A stretch of 64,000 nucleotides of DNA from an uncultured Clostridia bacterium. Its GTDB lineage: Bacteria > Bacillota > Clostridia > Christensenellales > Pumilibacteraceae. The notes beneath the pieces are model-generated. The model did not search any database. It was not told the origin of the DNA and was given only the letters and a program-made list of their open reading frames with translations. The DNA lies in assembly GCA_947589465.1 (NCBI GenBank), contig CANQAE010000002.1:1-64000 (forward strand), given 5' to 3'. Below, one piece after another: positions 29,317 to 36,029 of this stretch (position 1 is the first letter of the stretch; each line of letters starts with the position of its first letter). A program made the translations under genes and the position numbers.

Positions 29317-29649
29317 TCAATTGCCGTATCCGGGAGTCATCGGAGTATACACGCTTATTTTGCCGTACAACTTCATATCCTTGTCGACATAATAAGAATT
29401 GAGTTTTTCGGTAAGTTCCTTATCGAGATACCAACCCAAAAACGTTACTATTTTACCCGAATTTTCTTCGCTGCTATATTCGTAATCGAATCTGCCGTTC
29501 ACCGTTCGTTCGGTATGGACGAGTTTGTCGCCTATATAAAATTCCACAGTATGCTCTCCGTCGCCGCACGCAGTCATGAAGATCGCGCCCAAAAGTACCG
29601 AAATCGCAAGAAGTAAACAACAAATTCTTTTCATTCCTTTGGTCTTCAA
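29317..29649 (-). CDS. Small lipoprotein with one InlB-type repeat
   Basis: 110 residues. Basic start, hydrophobic core and the lipobox FMTAC, with Cys28 as the lipidated residue, give a membrane-anchored exported protein. The mature part of 80 residues matches the Listeria-Bacteroides (InlB B) repeat pattern: strands around VEFYIGDKLVHTE, then FLGWYLDKELTEKL, then KDMKLYGKI. The start is TTG at 29649, two bases after the stop of the BrxL-like gene; an ATG five codons in (29634) is the alternative. Last gene of the operon, so possibly its surface component; that role is inferred from position only. Confidence 0.75.
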   Translation of the reverse strand: MKTKGMKRICCLLLAISVLLGAIFMTACGDGEHTVEFYIGDKLVHTERTVNGRFDYEYSSEENSGKIVTFLGWYLDKELTEKLNSYYVDKDMKLYGKISVYTPMTPGYGN

Positions 29650-29651
29650 AA

Positions 29652-31088
29652 TTACTCTCTATACCCCTTTATACCGAATTCGGGCATATCTTTTTTGTAT
29701 TCCGTGTCCAAAATTGAGAGTTGCTTGCGAATTATGTCACGCATACTTACGGCTGGCGTCAAACAATATTTGTCGAAAAGTTCTTTGTCCACATCGTCCG
29801 AAGTTCGATAATGCGGAAACAAAAGTTTGAGAAAGGCGGTCGCTATTCTCTTTACGGCAGTAACGTCGCGCGTATCCGCATTGCGCTCCACGAGTACGAT
29901 ATCGTCCACTATTGCGCGATAAGAAATATCGCTTCTCAGTTCGTGCATTATCTCAGCGAAATATTCGCAGTTCAGCGCCCAACCCTTCACCTTCTTGCTT
30001 TCGTTCATACGCGGGATCTTCCACCCCTCTATAAAGCCGTGGAATCTGTCGAGCAAAGCCGATTCGCGGAAAATTTCGGGAAGTCTATCGAACATATTTT
30101 CGTTTACGTCCATTTTGCTATTTGGGATATTGCCGAGAAGCACAACGCCCGCATCGCCGCTACCCGACTTTACGCCGACGCTGTACTTGCCGCTTTCCAA
30201 AAATCCTTTCATAGCGCCCTGCATTTCGGCGGCGTCGGGAAATTTGATAGTGGCGATCTCGTCGAGTGCGACAAAGTCATAATTCATAACGAGCCCTTCG
30301 GTTTTGAGCCTCATATCGTAAAACATTTTCGCACGCGTCATAACTCCGCCGCTGCTGAGCCAACCGCGACGGCTGATTTGCGAAAAGAGGTACGATTTGC
30401 CCGTTCCCTTCGGGGCAAGTTCGATAAGATTCAATCGCTTTTCGACGAACGGCAACAATCTCCTCAGCATCATAAATTTCTCATCGTTTTCGAAGCCGTC
30501 GGCATTATAGTCGATAGCGCCGAGCAAAACGTCTATCCATTCGTCAAGTTCGAAATGCGCTCTCGCCCTCTTGTAATATTCGGTATCTATTTTGTAAGGA
30601 CGAAAAGATTTGAAACTTTTCAATTTGATTTTTCCCATTTCGTTTTTGCCTACGGTGACTTTGCCGTAATAAAATTCGGCTATTCCCCACACCGCTCCGT
30701 TGCAATCGAGAAAATCATCCTTGACTTCCGCCCAAACGGTGGGATCGATACGTGTATCCGAACCCGTCACACCGAAGTCGGGCAACTCGAACGTGACAAC
30801 CGACGTACCGATGTCTATATCGACTTTTATCTTCGCCATAAACTTTACGGTCGAACCCGTGTTTATCATTTTGTCGAGAAGCGCGTTCCAATCATCTTTG
30901 CGCGGCAAAATTGCCTTTATTCTGTCGGCAACGAAAGCGGGATCGACGTTCCCCTCCGAATCCGCGTATTTTCGAATAAACCAGTCGCGAATAAACGACG
31001 GAATACTGAGAGAGGCGAACTGTTCCGCCACAGTGTCTTTTTTGACGATCATATTACCGAAATATTCGGCAAGTTTAGAATTTTCCAT
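29652..31088 (-). CDS. BrxL-like AAA+ ATPase (short form, no Lon protease domain)
   Basis: 478 residues. An N-terminal helical part (1-75), a beta-rich OB-like region (80-165), then an AAA+ core: Walker A APKGTGKS at 225-232, Walker B DFVALDEI at 271-278, sensor LLGNIPNS at 317-324, and arginine-finger block LLDRFHGFIEGW at 346-357. The sequence around Walker A (EKRLNLIELAPKGTGKSYLF) and SSGGVMTRAKMFYD is characteristic of BrxL, the Lon-related ATPase of BREX defence. BREX BrxL proteins are about 200 residues longer and end in a Lon-like domain, which is missing here. No pglX, pglZ, brxC or other BREX gene is nearby. ATG follows GGAGG. Confidence 0.85.
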   Translation of the reverse strand: MENSKLAEYFGNMIVKKDTVAEQFASLSIPSFIRDWFIRKYADSEGNVDPAFVADRIKAILPRKDDWNALLDKMINTGSTVKFMAKIKVDIDIGTSVVTFELPDFGVTGSDTRIDPTVWAEVKDDFLDCNGAVWGIAEFYYGKVTVGKNEMGKIKLKSFKSFRPYKIDTEYYKRARAHFELDEWIDVLLGAIDYNADGFENDEKFMMLRRLLPFVEKRLNLIELAPKGTGKSYLFSQISRRGWLSSGGVMTRAKMFYDMRLKTEGLVMNYDFVALDEIATIKFPDAAEMQGAMKGFLESGKYSVGVKSGSGDAGVVLLGNIPNSKMDVNENMFDRLPEIFRESALLDRFHGFIEGWKIPRMNESKKVKGWALNCEYFAEIMHELRSDISYRAIVDDIVLVERNADTRDVTAVKRIATAFLKLLFPHYRTSDDVDKELFDKYCLTPAVSMRDIIRKQLSILDTEYKKDMPEFGIKGYRE

Positions 31089-31098
31089 TTATCCTCCG

Positions 31099-31133
31099 CA
31101 AAAACAATTCCGGACTGAAAAGCATCCGGAATC
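31099..31133 (-). terminator. Hairpin plus T run between the AAA genes (attenuator-like)
   Basis: Minus strand: an 8-bp perfect stem ATTCCGGA/TCCGGAAT (31132-31125 with 31114-31107) with a 10-base loop, followed by TGTTTTTG. The ribosome site of the BrxL-like gene begins right after. It has the form of an intrinsic terminator inside the operon, so it may lower expression of the two distal genes. Confidence 0.7.
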
Positions 31134-31138
31134 GTTTG

Positions 31139-32695
31139 TCAAATATCGTAATCTTCTTCCTGAATTCCGCCCGTAAAACGAACGGTAAATTGCCCTATCT
31201 TTTTGCCCGCAAAGACTTCGACGACGTACTCGCCCGGATTAACATCAAGTTCGGCGCTCACCCAATTGAAAATATTCGGCGTACAAACGTAATTATGCGT
31301 ATTCAACCTGATGTAGATCGAATCGTATTTTTGCGGAATAAAAAATTCTATATGCGGTTTTTCGTCCGGCAAAAGTTTTATTTCCGTTTCTTTTACGATT
31401 ATAGTTTGTTCTTTTTCGTCTTTTATTTCGGGTTTTGTTTCTTTCGGCGCGGGTTCGGGTTCGTTCGGAGCAGATTCGGTCGTTTTCGGCGCAGGTTCGG
31501 GCTCTTTCGGAGCGGGACTCGTCGGTTTGTCGTAAGAACGATCGTCCCGATTCTTTTCCTCTTTTACGCCGTTTTCGCGGTTATACTGCTCGAATCTCAG
31601 CATTTCCTGCGGATTTATCGTGCTCGGTACGTTTTTGAGCGCGTATTCGAAGTCATCTTTCGTAAGTTTCACCAATTCGCCGCTGTCTATGCTTTTGAGA
31701 AGCGGTTCATCTTTGGCTCTGTCGCAAAGTTCTTCGAGATCGGCGCCGCTGTACCCTTCGGTGCGCCTTACGAGTTCGGCTATATCGACGTCATCGGCGA
31801 GGGGTACGTTCTTCAAATATTTGCGTATAAGAAATTCTCTTGCGGGCGCATCTGGCAAAGACACGTAGATCTTTTGCGAAAAACGTCCCGACCTTGTTGC
31901 GGCACTGTCTATATCCCACGGTCTGTTGGTCGCGCCGAGCAACAAAAGATTGGGGTTACGCCCCACAAATCCGTCTATCTGTTGCAAAAATTCGTTTACG
32001 CGTTTATCGTTATGCTGATCGACGCCGCGCATTCCTATAAGGCTATCCATTTCGTCGATAAAAATTATCGCGAGTTTTTCTTTGCGAGCGGCTTCGAAAA
32101 GCGAACTTATGTTCTTTTCGCTCTCGCCCACCCACTTGCTGACGATGTCCGAGCCTTTTATCGCATAAAAGGTTGCGCCCACTTCGCAAGCAATGGCTTT
32201 GGCTATCATGGTTTTGCCCGTTCCCGGAGGTCCGTACAAAAGCACGCCGCCGCCGGTGGCCTTGTTGTATGCTTTATAAGTATCGGGATGGCGCAAGGGA
32301 TTGATCATTCTTATGGTGATCGTGCGTTTTACCGATTCGAGCCCCGCTATGTCCGAAAAATGAATGTCGGGGATCGTCGCGCCTTGCCACTCTTTGCCGT
32401 CGTCGCCCTCGTCGTTTTGCGGTTTGTTTACGGGTTGCTGTTTGGGCGCAGGCTTCGGCAAAGAATCGGACGGATCGCAATCGAGCGATTCGGCTATTTC
32501 GACAAGTCTGTGCGCTCTGTCCATTCGCGCCTTTTTGAGTTCTTTCGTGCTTTGAGCCGCAAGTTTCATCATCATTTCGGCGGCAAGCAAATAGTTGCGA
32601 CGAGCAAGAGTGTTTTTCCCCGCAGCCTGCAACTCCTTGGCTTTACCGTAATACATATCGAAACGCTCTGCAAGATAATTTACGGAATCCGCCAT
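31139..32695 (-). CDS. MIT-AAA+ ATPase, Vps4-like, with C-terminal beta domain
   Basis: 518 residues. Residues 1-73 form three helices with the MIT pattern (FDMYYGKAKELQAAG, NYLLAAEMMMKLA, DRAHRLVEIAESL). A Gln/Pro linker follows, then a Vps4/katanin-class AAA+ core: DIAGLESVK 115-123, Walker A GPPGTGKT 155-162, pore loop SKWVGESE 186-193 with the Vps4 tryptophan, Walker B IIFIDEMDSL 210-219, sensor GATNRP 254-259, and arginine finger near SGRF 269-272. A Pro/Glu repeat linker (390-425) leads to a beta-sandwich-like domain (445-510). In eukaryotes and archaea such enzymes disassemble ESCRT-III polymers by gripping their tails with the MIT domain. The neighbouring genes encode candidate substrates. 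ATG follows GAGG; the upstream stop is 2 bases away. Confidence 0.85.
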   Translation of the reverse strand: MADSVNYLAERFDMYYGKAKELQAAGKNTLARRNYLLAAEMMMKLAAQSTKELKKARMDRAHRLVEIAESLDCDPSDSLPKPAPKQQPVNKPQNDEGDDGKEWQGATIPDIHFSDIAGLESVKRTITIRMINPLRHPDTYKAYNKATGGGVLLYGPPGTGKTMIAKAIACEVGATFYAIKGSDIVSKWVGESEKNISSLFEAARKEKLAIIFIDEMDSLIGMRGVDQHNDKRVNEFLQQIDGFVGRNPNLLLLGATNRPWDIDSAATRSGRFSQKIYVSLPDAPAREFLIRKYLKNVPLADDVDIAELVRRTEGYSGADLEELCDRAKDEPLLKSIDSGELVKLTKDDFEYALKNVPSTINPQEMLRFEQYNRENGVKEEKNRDDRSYDKPTSPAPKEPEPAPKTTESAPNEPEPAPKETKPEIKDEKEQTIIVKETEIKLLPDEKPHIEFFIPQKYDSIYIRLNTHNYVCTPNIFNWVSAELDVNPGEYVVEVFAGKKIGQFTVRFTGGIQEEDYDI

Positions 32696-32696
32696 A

Positions 32697-33278
32697 TCAA
32701 ACCTCGCTGTCTATTTTCTTCCTGATCTCGGCGAGTTCTTTGTCGATATCGTCGCTGCTCATTTCGTCCTGCGATGTTTCCTCGTTCACAATGGCGGCAA
32801 ACTGTTCGTCGGTAATGCTCTTGTCCGCGGACGCCTGCGACGAGAAGGACGATTGGCTCATATCCATAAATACGTCCATCTGCTCGGTCTGCGTTTCCAC
32901 GCCCGCCATAGCCTTTTCGAACTCGGCTTGGACCTTCAAAAATTCCTTGCTGTCGGTAAGTTTTGCCATTTCTTTGCTCAAAACGCTCATTCCGCCGAGG
33001 AACTGAGAAGTCATCATGCTCATATCCTTCATTTGCGAAGTGATCTCGAAATTCAATAGCATTTCCTGAGCGCGCTTTTGCTGAGCGAGCGTCATCTTGT
33101 AACCGGTGAGCGCAAGGTTATACTGAGAATCGAGTCCTTTCTTTTTCGCCTCTTTTGCTTTTTCTATAAAGACTTTCTTTTGCTCCTCCAAAAGGTCTAT
33201 CTGCTTATTCATCGCATTGATGGTCCTGCGAATGAGCATCTTTTTTTCGATTTCTTTCTGGCTTTTGCTCTTAAACAT
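32697..33278 (-). CDS. ESCRT-III/Snf7-like helical protein with MIM1-like tail
   Basis: 193 residues from the ATG at 33278, seven bases after AGGAG; a longer in-frame start lies inside the upstream gene. Composition follows ESCRT-III: short basic N-terminus (FKSKSQKEIEKKM), a long helical hairpin (about 8-85) rich in Lys and Gln, a Met-rich helix region (80-140; SKEMAKLTDSKEFLKVQAEF then TEQMDVFMDM), an acidic Ser-rich linker, and a final helix DDIDKELAEIRKKI (177-190) resembling the MIM1 motif that binds MIT domains. The next gene encodes the MIT ATPase. No enzyme motif. The assignment is by pattern, not by search. Confidence 0.7.
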   Translation of the reverse strand: MFKSKSQKEIEKKMLIRRTINAMNKQIDLLEEQKKVFIEKAKEAKKKGLDSQYNLALTGYKMTLAQQKRAQEMLLNFEITSQMKDMSMMTSQFLGGMSVLSKEMAKLTDSKEFLKVQAEFEKAMAGVETQTEQMDVFMDMSQSSFSSQASADKSITDEQFAAIVNEETSQDEMSSDDIDKELAEIRKKIDSEV

Positions 33279-33282
33279 AAAC

Positions 33283-33876
33283 TTACTCCTGTAAACCGGC
33301 GGGTTTAGCCGCATTGGATTCGCTGTCCGCTCCGACTTCTTCGTCGAGTTGACTTCCCGTTTCGAAGATAGCGAGCAATTGATCGTCGTTGTCGTTCACG
33401 CCGTAAATAGTTTGGTTTTCTTCGTACGAGCCCTGAATCTCGGCGAAAGTTTCGTCGGCGGATGTCAAAACATCTTCGGCACGGACCTTTGTGTTGAGCG
33501 CCTTGTTTAGGAATTTCGCAAGTCCCTTTTGATCGCCCAAGAGGTTGCCGAGCGAAACTTTGCCCGCATTGACGAAGAATTGATTGTCGTCGATGGCGTC
33601 CTTCAACTTTTTCATAAGGCGTATGTTGTAAAGCAGATACATACCCCTTTTGACGTCGTTTTCTTTTTCTTCTTTCAAATGATTGAGTTTTTTCGCATAA
33701 AAAAGTTTCAAATCGCGATTCGGTTCGTTTTTGCCCTTTTCCATAAGATCGTTGATCTGCTGGATCTTGCTCATTATCGTTTCTTCAAGATCTGATTCTT
33801 GTTTTTCCAAGTCGATAATAGCGGCGACAACGTCCTCGCGTTTCAACTTATCGTATTTACTTTTAAACGGCCACAT
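33283..33876 (-). CDS. Second ESCRT-III-like helical protein
   Basis: 197 residues. It begins MWPFKSKYDKLKRED, the Trp-Phe-basic start often seen in Snf7/CHMP proteins, where it inserts into membranes. Two long charged helices (about 15-48 and 53-98) form a hairpin, followed by shorter helices (105-150) and an acidic, disordered C-terminus. Charge shifts from basic to acidic along the chain as in ESCRT-III. The short region QTIYGVNDNDDQLLAIFE (155-172) might be a tail motif. It ends 4 bases before its paralogue-like neighbour. GGAG precedes the ATG by 8 bases. Confidence 0.65.
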   Translation of the reverse strand: MWPFKSKYDKLKREDVVAAIIDLEKQESDLEETIMSKIQQINDLMEKGKNEPNRDLKLFYAKKLNHLKEEKENDVKRGMYLLYNIRLMKKLKDAIDDNQFFVNAGKVSLGNLLGDQKGLAKFLNKALNTKVRAEDVLTSADETFAEIQGSYEENQTIYGVNDNDDQLLAIFETGSQLDEEVGADSESNAAKPAGLQE

Positions 33877-33890
33877 AGTTTATTCTCCGC

Positions 33891-34226
33891 TCAGCGCTCT
33901 CTCACGTTCTTTCGTTCAACGGCAAGATATTTGATTTCCTTGACCATATCGTAAGCCTTTGTAAAATCTTCCTTCTTTTCCGCTTTGTTGAGGGCGATTT
34001 TGGTGTCGCCGATAAGACCCGCTATCTTCTTGTCGAATTTTACCGCGTCGTCGTTGACGGTGGGATTCAAATATTTGAGGATCTCCTGTATGTCGTCAAG
34101 TTGCGCTACGAGATCGGGCTCGGAGGACGCGAGTTCTTTCAAAACATTGATTTGATTGGCGTTGTCCGCAATGGTCTGCTTGTTGTCAAGCAACTTTTGC
34201 CTTTCGCCTTTACGACTGAAACACAT
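33891..34226 (-). CDS. Small helical protein of the ESCRT/BrxL-like operon
   Basis: 111 residues, all helical, no hydrophobic segment. Basic at both ends (CFSRKGERQK at the start, ERKNVRER at the end) with an acidic middle (ASSEPDLVAQLDDIQEIL). I recognise no family. Start follows AAGGAG. Tight spacing to both neighbours (14 and 25 bases) makes it part of the operon. It could be an adaptor or a third, minimal helical-hairpin subunit. Confidence 0.65.
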   Translation of the reverse strand: MCFSRKGERQKLLDNKQTIADNANQINVLKELASSEPDLVAQLDDIQEILKYLNPTVNDDAVKFDKKIAGLIGDTKIALNKAEKKEDFTKAYDMVKEIKYLAVERKNVRER

Positions 34227-34251
34227 AATTTATTTTCTCCTTAAATAAAGA

Positions 34252-35322
34252 TTAAAGTTTTTGTCCGCAGTTAGAGCAAAAAGCGGCTCCTGGTGCAACG
34301 GGCTTACGGCAGTGCGGGCAAACGGCGGGTTCGTCGCTCACCTTTTTGCCGCAACCGGGGCAGAACTTTGCTCCGTGTTCGTAACTGTGTCCGCAGTTAG
34401 GACAGAAATTGGCTCCGCGAGGACCTTCGCCTTTATGTCCCGAATTTTCCCAACCGACTATCTCGACGGCACGCAAATACTTTTCGTAATTTTGCGCTTT
34501 GAGTTCTTCGAGCCACTTTTGTCTTTCGAAATCCACGTCGCCCGCGGCTTTGTTGAGTTTGATGAGTTCGTATTCTTTGCGTATCTGTTCGTCGAATGCG
34601 CGACGCTTTTCTTCTTCCTCTTTCGCCTTCATCTCATCGCGACGTCTTTCTTCCTTTTCGCGGTTGAGTTCGTGCTCGATTTTTTGAATATCTTCATCGT
34701 CGATCATAATGGCGTCGATCACGAACGAGAACAATGTAAGTCCGTAATCGCGACGGAACATCTTCTCCATTTCGGGCTTTATCAAATCGGCAATTTCCTT
34801 GCTGTTTTGCGTGATGCGATCGTATGTAAGGTTGCGCTCCTGCATTACGCGAGCGATTATCGGCTGGATCTCGCTGCACATACGACTTCGCAATCTCTCT
34901 TGAAGTTTTGCGATCGTGTATGTCTTGTCTGCGCCTATCAGTTCGAGATATGCTTTGCGCGGATCGCCGATCTGTACTTCGAACGTCCCTCTTACGCCTA
35001 TCTTGATGGGTATATCGGTCTGCGGATCGCGCATATCGAATCTGTTGGGAGTCCCCCACTTTACTTCGACTTTGCAGGTCTTGGAAACATAAATGAATTC
35101 GACCTTGTCCACGTTTTTGTCGTCTTTATTAAGAACCGGATATTTGCCGGCTTCGAGAGTATTGAGATATGCACCGTCCTTAATAAATATGGCGTTATGA
35201 GTATCGTTCACTATTACCATAGTTTTTTTACTCGGATTTAAGACTTCCTTACGAACGAACAGGTCGTTGTTTGTAAGTTCTAGATTATTAAGAGTTATGA
35301 ACTCCGGTTTTGCAAACAGCAT
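34252..35322 (-). CDS. SPFH-domain protein with two double zinc ribbons (YdjI-like)
   Basis: 356 residues. A SPFH/band-7 domain (about 25-205) is followed by a long charged coiled coil (210-285) and a C-terminal region with four CxxC pairs (C307/C310, C321/C324, C335/C338, C349/C352), enough for two zinc sites. There is no N-terminal membrane helix, so it is cytosolic or peripherally attached, like YdjI of Bacillus subtilis. There the ydjI gene lies in an operon with pspA, whose product belongs to the ESCRT-III superfamily, a striking parallel with this operon. First gene of the operon; AGGAGG precedes the ATG. Confidence 0.85.
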   Translation of the reverse strand: MLFAKPEFITLNNLELTNNDLFVRKEVLNPSKKTMVIVNDTHNAIFIKDGAYLNTLEAGKYPVLNKDDKNVDKVEFIYVSKTCKVEVKWGTPNRFDMRDPQTDIPIKIGVRGTFEVQIGDPRKAYLELIGADKTYTIAKLQERLRSRMCSEIQPIIARVMQERNLTYDRITQNSKEIADLIKPEMEKMFRRDYGLTLFSFVIDAIMIDDEDIQKIEHELNREKEERRRDEMKAKEEEEKRRAFDEQIRKEYELIKLNKAAGDVDFERQKWLEELKAQNYEKYLRAVEIVGWENSGHKGEGPRGANFCPNCGHSYEHGAKFCPGCGKKVSDEPAVCPHCRKPVAPGAAFCSNCGQKL

Positions 35323-35363: not shown

Positions 35364-35392
35364 ATTATATATATAATTGTAATAAATGTCAA
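35364..35392 (-). promoter_or_regulatory. Consensus promoter of the ESCRT/BrxL-like operon
   Basis: Minus strand: TTGACA (35392-35387), 17 bases, TATAAT (35369-35364), both perfect, in a very AT-rich setting. Predicted start near 35357 gives a 35-base leader with AGGAGG. Such a strong unregulated-looking promoter suggests steady expression unless a repressor binds the AT-rich flank. Confidence 0.85.
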
Positions 35393-35489: not shown

Positions 35490-35984
35490 TTACTTTAACG
35501 TTATTACGGTAAAGATCATAAGTCCTATTACAAACAACAAGACGACAATGCGCGAAATCACATACGGCACGATAATCTTTTTTGCGGACGCGCGCTTATA
35601 ACGCGGCTTGGAAAGCAATCCAAAAACTATGTATAAGACGGCGGCTATCGCTCCGCCGACAGTAAAATACGGTTGAACAAGAAAATACGCAAGCAAAGTA
35701 AAAGCCACCGAAACGACAAGAAAGCCGATCGCTATGAGGTACATAAGTCTTGCCTTTTTTTCGTCAAGCAATCTTTTCGTTTCGACGTCGCTGTCCGAAA
35801 TCAAATCGTCGATACCGACATGGAAAAAATTTGAAATAAGTTTCAGGCTGTCGATGGACGGAAAACCATTGCCTGTTTCCCATTTCGAAATTGCCGTGCG
35901 TGTGACATAAATTTTGTCCGCCAAATCTTCTTGTGTAAGATCATTAGCCTTTCTCAGTTGTTTAAGTTTTTCGCCGAATGTCAT
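35490..35984 (-). CDS. XRE-family regulator with membrane C-terminus
   Basis: 164 residues from the ATG at 35984, seven bases after AAGGAGG. Residues 3-65 are a Cro/CI helix-turn-helix (LTQEDLADKIYVTRTAISKW). The rest has three hydrophobic helices (about 80-100, 105-125, 140-162), making a membrane-tethered DNA-binding protein. Such XRE-membrane proteins often sense membrane state. It stands directly upstream of the ESCRT-like operon and in the same direction, so it is a candidate regulator, though the operon has its own promoter. Confidence 0.85.
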   Translation of the reverse strand: MTFGEKLKQLRKANDLTQEDLADKIYVTRTAISKWETGNGFPSIDSLKLISNFFHVGIDDLISDSDVETKRLLDEKKARLMYLIAIGFLVVSVAFTLLAYFLVQPYFTVGGAIAAVLYIVFGLLSKPRYKRASAKKIIVPYVISRIVVLLFVIGLMIFTVITLK

Positions 35985-36029
35985 TTTCGTGCCTCCTTGC
36001 GCTCGCAATCCTTGCAAGCAAGTTTTTTC

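Follow-up and report, generated by a model that had tools for sequence, protein, structure and literature searches.

Seven genes in one direction occupy positions 29317 to 35322 of a 64,000-nucleotide stretch of contig CANQAE010000002.1 (hereafter, the window), which belongs to the 1.3 Mb draft genome of an uncultured Clostridia bacterium. Read on the minus strand from 35322 down to 29317, they encode an SPFH-zinc-ribbon protein, a small helical protein, two further helical proteins termed E1 and E2, a Vps4-like AAA+ ATPase, a short BrxL and a lipoprotein (Table 1). This operon is the subject of the present analysis, which addresses its relationship to the endosomal sorting complexes required for transport (ESCRT) of archaea and eukaryotes.

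A conserved core with a variable tail

All seven reading frames are open, and the intergenic gaps, from the first gene to the last, are 25, 14, 4, 1, 50 and 17 bp, in agreement with an earlier note on this DNA that had described seven tightly spaced genes forming one unit. Two start codons were corrected: E2 begins at ATG 33278, a further ATG at 33314 falling within E1, and the lipoprotein begins at ATG 29634. A Pfam scan of the window proteins gave no significant match for E1, E2 or the small protein. A sigma-70-type consensus, recognized by pattern match only, lies just before the first gene. Directly upstream of it, on the operon strand, is a gene for an RstR-like helix-turn-helix protein with apparent C-terminal membrane segments (window 35490-36017), which is a possible regulator of the operon.

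Table 1. Features of the operon and of its genomic slot (window coordinates unless a locus is named)
Feature	Position	Strand	Basis and remarks
SPFH (band-7) protein with C-terminal double zinc ribbon, 356 aa	34252..35322	-	First gene; Pfam Band_7_1 2.5e-17, DZR 1.5e-11
Small helical protein, 111 aa	33891..34226	-	Core gene (cluster c4); conserved, no Pfam match
E1, ESCRT-III-like helical protein, 197 aa	33283..33876	-	AlphaFold, Foldseek, profile match to Thermococcus proteins
E2, putative ESCRT-III (Snf7-type) protein, 193 aa	32697..33278	-	MIM1-like C-terminal helix DDIDKELAEIRKKI; hhalign, Pfam Snf7 in relatives, AlphaFold/Foldseek
Vps4-like AAA+ ATPase, 518 aa	31139..32695	-	MIT-like domain (about 1-70), AAA core, Vps4_C-like helix, extra C-terminal domain; Pfam, hhalign, trees
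Short BrxL, 478 aa	29652..31088	-	Variable tail gene; N-terminal and MCM-like AAA+ domains, without C-terminal Lon-like domain; TIGR02688, PADLOC
Lipoprotein with Flg_new-like repeat, 105 aa	29317..29634	-	Local; sequence, weak Flg_new 0.0018
Consensus promoter TTGACA-17-TATAAT	35364..35392	-	Upstream of operon; 12/12 match, pattern only
Slot beside antiporter gene	L192:1-3015, L184:296-871, L191:11116-14014; window 29317-35322		AbiH/HNH, truncated SPFH gene or OLD-like ATPase in sister species

E2 was searched for in other genomes. Among 61 genomes of the species represented by the window and of its relatives, 14 contain it; across the order it occurs in 43 of 396 genomes (about 11%), and many of these 43 carry the core in the same order. 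It was absent from several sister species. Samples of the rest of the class (Clostridia) and of the phylum (Bacillota) gave no E2 outside the order, and a search of viruses and phages did not find the system. A scan of named genomes yielded 80 loci. Their labels are almost always uncultured Clostridia, Clostridiales or Eubacteriales, with a single locus (L179) assigned to Bacilli, and the named sources include Christensenella sp. UBA3700, Ca. Coproplasma and Ca. Caccovivens. About 70 of these 80 loci hold the five-gene core in the same order, and the large majority of maps follow the constant order SPFH, small protein, (TPR-like c9), E1, E2, AAA. Across 79 named loci, the same-strand run includes the ATPase in 78, E1 in 73, the small protein in 69 and the SPFH protein in 68; the median distance between E1 and E2 is 4 bp. 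Because the core recurs in the same order in so many of the named loci and order genomes, the operon is not a chance assembly. Contamination was ruled out, as the loci were recovered from numerous separate assemblies, in which their contigs reach 824 kb. The recurrence of the gene set in other genomes, which the earlier note had proposed to check, was therefore observed, confined to the order in the samples searched. Its seven-gene set did not stand as a whole: five genes form a conserved core, while BrxL is an exchangeable tail gene and the lipoprotein, not found in other operon maps, is local.

E2, E1 and the ATPase compared with archaeal and eukaryotic ESCRT

A profile built from 59 E2 proteins was compared by hhalign with six human and yeast ESCRT-III proteins: CHMP1A and CHMP1B, which were checked against PDB sequences, and CHMP2A, CHMP3, CHMP4B and Snf7. 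The match reached probabilities of 95.9-97.5% and a score of 62.8, whereas the reversed profile scored 15.3 and none of 40 column shuffles exceeded 16.5. It fitted the Vps2/CHMP1-3 type better than the Snf7/CHMP4 type. Pfam Snf7 was matched by 3 of 18 E2 relatives (best E-value, 3.9e-6), and in one fused relative the match spanned almost the whole profile. The AlphaFold model of E2 shows the ESCRT-III layout, an alpha1-alpha2 hairpin followed by alpha3-alpha5 (helices 5-46, 50-105, 110-147, 157-172 and 175-192). When this model was used in Foldseek, CdvB ranked first, and CHMP1B/IST1, CHMP2A-CHMP3, Vipp1 and PspA were also in the list, though with weak E-values (0.11). The spacing of a MIM1 motif, L/I-x-x-x-L-x-x-L/I, occurs in the last helix of 48 of the 59 proteins against 6.7 expected by shuffling, the strict MIM1 consensus being present in 1 of 59; a MIM1-like motif in the predicted E2 tail is well supported. 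An identity with PspA or Vipp1 was rejected, as E2 scored 19.9, near background, against E. coli PspA. Computation shows the predicted E2 protein to be a relative of ESCRT-III (Snf7) that is closer to archaeal and eukaryotic ESCRT-III than to PspA.

The ATPase matches Pfam AAA (1.7e-40) and, slightly under the cut-off, Vps4_C (6e-4; 20.2 bits against 21.3). Its N-terminal 70 residues showed a moderate hhalign match to MIT domains (probability 61%; score 29.1, with shuffles at or below 15.7 and the reversed profile at 18.9), and the prediction of an MIT-like N-terminus is well supported. In trees holding 11 to 12 references, the bacterial ATPases formed one clade, sister to Vps4, CdvC, katanin and spastin together and apart from p97, PAN and FtsH, with support of 99/96 and 99/95. 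The human and yeast Vps4 and the CdvC references were taken from or checked against PDB alignments; the further references included p97, spastin, katanin, PAN and FtsH. The protein carries the pore loop SKWVGESEK and the motif ATNRPW, both of the Vps4/katanin type. By these computations the predicted ATPase groups with Vps4, CdvC and katanin and not with Cdc48, PAN or FtsH. Assignment to the IetAS defence system was also considered and rejected (NCBIfam IteA, 113 bits against a cut-off of 510), the PADLOC IetA match of 1.3e-38 reflecting general AAA similarity.

The AlphaFold model of E1, with a predicted local distance difference test score of 68, contains a long alpha1-alpha2 hairpin (helices 13-50 and 54-96) and short distal helices. 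All of its top seven Foldseek matches were CdvB2 filaments (probability up to 0.98; E-value, 0.06), and a VIA ranking placed Asgard ESCRT-IIIB, CHMP1B and Snf7 near the top, among some unrelated helical proteins. By hhalign, E1 matched E2 with a probability of 56% and a score of 36.6. Against the two helical proteins that accompany an E2 homologue in a Thermococcus ESCRT operon, it reached a probability of 82% and a score of 42.6 (controls at most 16.3); the direct match to CHMP was weak and not convincing. The ESCRT-III-like assignment of E1 is indirect but well supported, and E1 is most likely a second ESCRT-III-like subunit.

The Thermococcus operon was found by searching 72,556 plasmids with the window E2, which gave a single match (E-value, 4e-7), on Thermococcus peptonophilus plasmid NZ_CP014751.1. 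This operon (L206; 9067-27471) comprises genes for a pair of E1-like proteins, a kinase associated with the membrane, a Vps4 (Vps4_C, 7.7e-9), a PP2C phosphatase and an E2 homologue. The homologue matches Pfam Snf7 at 4.2e-4 and the profile of the bacterial E2 proteins at 1.6e-19. Since both E1 and E2 have counterparts in an operon that also encodes Vps4, the bacterial set points to an archaeal-type ESCRT rather than to PspA; and since the Thermococcus operon is plasmid-borne, ESCRT systems can travel on plasmids. The make-up of the Thermococcus operon fits the euryarchaeal 'Main' ESCRT clade (Makarova et al. 2024, PMC10936438), which resembles the bacterial operon in uniting ESCRT-III, a Vps4 with an MIT-like N-terminus and more helical proteins. 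The bacterial loci differ in their host, in having an SPFH-zinc-ribbon protein instead of archaeal kinase, winged-helix or Cas2-like proteins, and in their exchangeable effector-like tails. In one bacterial variant (L032:1700-5436), E2-AAA is followed downstream by genes for VWA, PP2C and protein kinase proteins, which recalls the kinase and phosphatase that archaeal ESCRT loci encode together.

Three other systems share parts of this arrangement. The 'Meth_adaptin' loci of Methanobacteriales likewise place an SPFH protein with a coiled coil and a zinc ribbon beside ESCRT-III and Vps4 (PMC10936438); however, they are archaeal and include adaptin-appendage and GOLD proteins, neither of which was recognized in Pfam scans of the bacterial loci. 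In Bacillus subtilis, the SPFH-zinc-finger protein YdjI is needed to recruit PspA, an ESCRT-III-superfamily protein, to the membrane (PMC8581546), but PspA is not of the Snf7 type, Vps4 is missing, and YdjG and YdjH, both membrane proteins, belong to the system. Ravi et al. (2024, PMC11237479) list neighbourhoods in which bacterial genes of the PspA/Snf7 superfamily lie close to AAA+ genes, as well as transfers of Vps4-like genes to bacteria; by that account Snf7 is displaced where the Vps4-like genes were transferred, the remaining AAA+ protein has two AAA domains, and no MIT/MIM pair, SPFH-E1-E2 core or effector tails are described. No description of the present gene set was found in the openly licensed literature, and the conserved operon of these uncultured gut Clostridia contradicts published surveys that confine this ESCRT machinery to archaea and eukaryotes.

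The interpretation given in the earlier note is supported. It had called E1 and E2 ESCRT-III-like, which is upheld for E1 by the predicted fold and the matches to E2 and the Thermococcus proteins, and for E2 by the profile comparison, the Snf7 matches in relatives and the strong match to the archaeal protein encoded beside Vps4; the comparison it had suggested between the 32697-33278 protein and the Snf7 and PspA families came out on the Snf7 side, with a near-background score for PspA. Its MIT-AAA+ Vps4-like ATPase agrees with the MIT score and the trees, its short BrxL-like ATPase proved to be a genuine BrxL above the curated cut-off, and its view that the set with added SPFH and BrxL-like proteins is not a described system accords with the literature found.

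BrxL, exchangeable tails and the genomic slot

The BrxL protein matches Pfam BrxL_ATPase at 1.4e-114 and BrxL_N at 8.5e-22, TIGR02688 at 422 bits (curated cut-off, 329) and PADLOC BrxL at 1.5e-196. It lies beside the core in 5 of the 23 BrxL-bearing genomes of the order, across several families, and in 7 of the 79 named loci in addition to the window, so its association with the core is real but optional. Like the BrxL of bacteriophage exclusion (BREX) systems, it has the N-terminal and ATPase domains, in a short form without the C-terminal domain as in Type-4 BREX (PMC12839542); unlike it, it is the tail gene of an ESCRT operon and has no BREX partners. A BREX system was rejected, since no PglZ was found in the genome, where the only candidate was a phosphoglycerate mutase below the cut-off, and a Pfam scan of the locus found no PglX, BrxC or PglZ gene beside BrxL.

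The tail position is variable. Zinc-ribbon/TPR/TIR tails are one form (TIR_2 in 23 of 39; best, 2.3e-13), and zinc-ribbon trypsin-like proteases (Trypsin_2, 1.5e-24), RelA/SpoT proteins (RelA_SpoT, 9e-11), MIT-like-RuvB-TnsA proteins and SNF2-type helicases are others. RelA/SpoT-domain proteins stand beside E2 in several variant operons (for instance L025:7606-8811 and L024:3661-5091). Close downstream of an operon with an E2-FtsK fusion, E2 and AAA lies a gene for a TIR-NB-ARC-APAF1_C-beta-propeller protein, an apoptosome-like architecture (L092:11390-14713).

Domain fusions were also observed among the relatives. The E2 domain is joined to FtsK/SpoIIIE-type translocases in three loci (L031:10506-12419, with FtsK_SpoIIIE at 1.6e-45; L033:876-2798; L092:7719-9254), perhaps hinting at a septum- or DNA-linked ESCRT. 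A RuvB-like ATPase is fused to an E2 domain in L034:1301-4186 and L097:5966-7633 and to an MIT-like N-terminus in L028:8156-10468, and the RuvB-like proteins of L034 and L028 bear a TnsA-like nuclease domain. In these three loci, a nuclease-helicase protein seems to have had its ESCRT-III and MIT-like modules swapped for one another.

Sister species of the genus keep the antiporter gene that adjoins the operon. There, the slot is occupied either by an OLD/AbiEii-like ATPase gene or by AbiH (1.8e-42) together with an HNH gene and a truncated SPFH gene. This pattern resembles a defence slot that gains and loses the ESCRT operon, and the slot is a candidate defence hotspot.

Possible function and alternative explanations

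Taken from predicted proteins and gene neighbourhoods, the reading that we favor, and regard as probable though far from settled, is that the operon encodes a bacterial ESCRT of the archaeal type, in which an SPFH-anchored polymer, recycled by a Vps4-like motor, would guard the membrane and be coupled to defence effectors. The SPFH-zinc-ribbon protein is probably a membrane scaffold or recruiter; it would mark or sense a patch of the cytoplasmic membrane and recruit E1 and E2, for which YdjI and PspA offer a precedent. E1 and E2 may then co-polymerize at the patch. The acidic, MIM1-like C-terminal helix of E2 would bind the MIT domain of the Vps4-like ATPase, whose hexamer could thread and extract subunits with its SKWxGESEK pore loops, so that the polymer is remodelled or reset. 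Upon a membrane breach, most likely triggered by phage entry or lysis proteins, the variable tail genes (BrxL, TIR-TPR, trypsin-like protease, RelA/SpoT enzyme, nuclease) would provide the output, and in the window operon BrxL might be loaded onto invading DNA at the membrane. We advance more tentatively, at somewhat less than even chances, the stronger proposal that a complete archaeal-type ESCRT-III/Vps4 machine forms the core of a modular immune system, whose polymer would sense the breach and license exchangeable effectors (TIR, protease, BrxL, RelA/SpoT, nuclease).

Several results weigh against these proposals. The window E2 by itself has no Pfam match, and its profile found nothing relevant among PDB chains by plain HMMER. 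Single CHMP1 sequences ranked best of about 2000 sequences for one E2 profile without reaching significance, and profile-profile comparison was adopted for this reason. The Foldseek E-values of both models are weak, and their VIA Z-scores tie with generic coiled coils or, for E2, unrelated long helices. As Pfam found no Snf7 in 42 E1 proteins, the link of E1 to ESCRT-III is indirect, and the probability of the MIT match is only 61%. The defence role is deduced entirely from gene context, and the TPR/TIR-like tail is nearly constant in one large clade, which is less typical of arms-race effectors.

The weak Foldseek values and tied VIA scores might also arise from chance resemblance, in which case E1 and E2 would be generic coiled-coil adaptors, stripped from effectors by an ATPase of the Cdc48-like unfoldase kind; in addition, the same E2 relatives match further coiled-coil Pfam families with E-values down to 5e-5. 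We nevertheless consider this highly improbable, as the profile-profile scores lie far over the reversed and shuffled controls, E2 matches an archaeal Snf7 protein encoded beside Vps4, the ATPase falls with Vps4 and katanin in the trees, and E2 carries a MIM1-like motif. A cell-division or vesicle-budding machine, like the Cdv system of TACK archaea, is scarcely better placed, even though homology to CdvB/CdvC-type proteins and the E2-FtsK fusions of some relatives would agree with it. An SPFH protein and effector-like tails are foreign to Cdv, and because only about 11% of the order genomes contain the system, it is not essential for division.

The alternative that deserves most attention, although we judge it unlikely, is a housekeeping machine for envelope stress or membrane repair that replaces PspA where PspA is absent, its tails being quality-control enzymes (protease, TPR) or mere neighbours and its BrxL incidental. 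The window's genome contains no PspA (PF04012), the recruitment of PspA by YdjI would provide a parallel, and quality control would be a fitting task for tails with a trypsin-like protease or TPR protein. A housekeeping role is, however, difficult to reconcile with the patchy presence of the system and its absence from several sister species, with TIR, NB-ARC, RelA/SpoT, nuclease and BrxL tails typical of immune effectors, and with the AbiH or OLD-like genes that occupy the slot in sister species. As for a BREX-derived defence locus, with BrxL as its main part and the ESCRT-like genes as accessories, the genuine BrxL and its recurrence beside the core in several families are what it would predict; but about 90% of loci retain the core in the absence of BrxL, PglZ is missing from the genome, and a 2026 survey of BREX mentions no ESCRT, Vps4 or SPFH (PMC12839542), leaving this the least credible explanation.

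If the favored reading of an archaeal-type ESCRT coupled to effectors is correct, its immune use would be a new kind of system, while the ESCRT set itself belongs to the known ESCRT kind. The operon offers a compact ESCRT set of bacterial origin that lends itself to reconstitution. It also makes testable whether membrane surveillance by ESCRT is linked to immune effectors, TIR domains and BrxL among them. The genes attached to the core resemble immune effectors that can be exchanged, which suggests that bacteria may employ ESCRT in defence.

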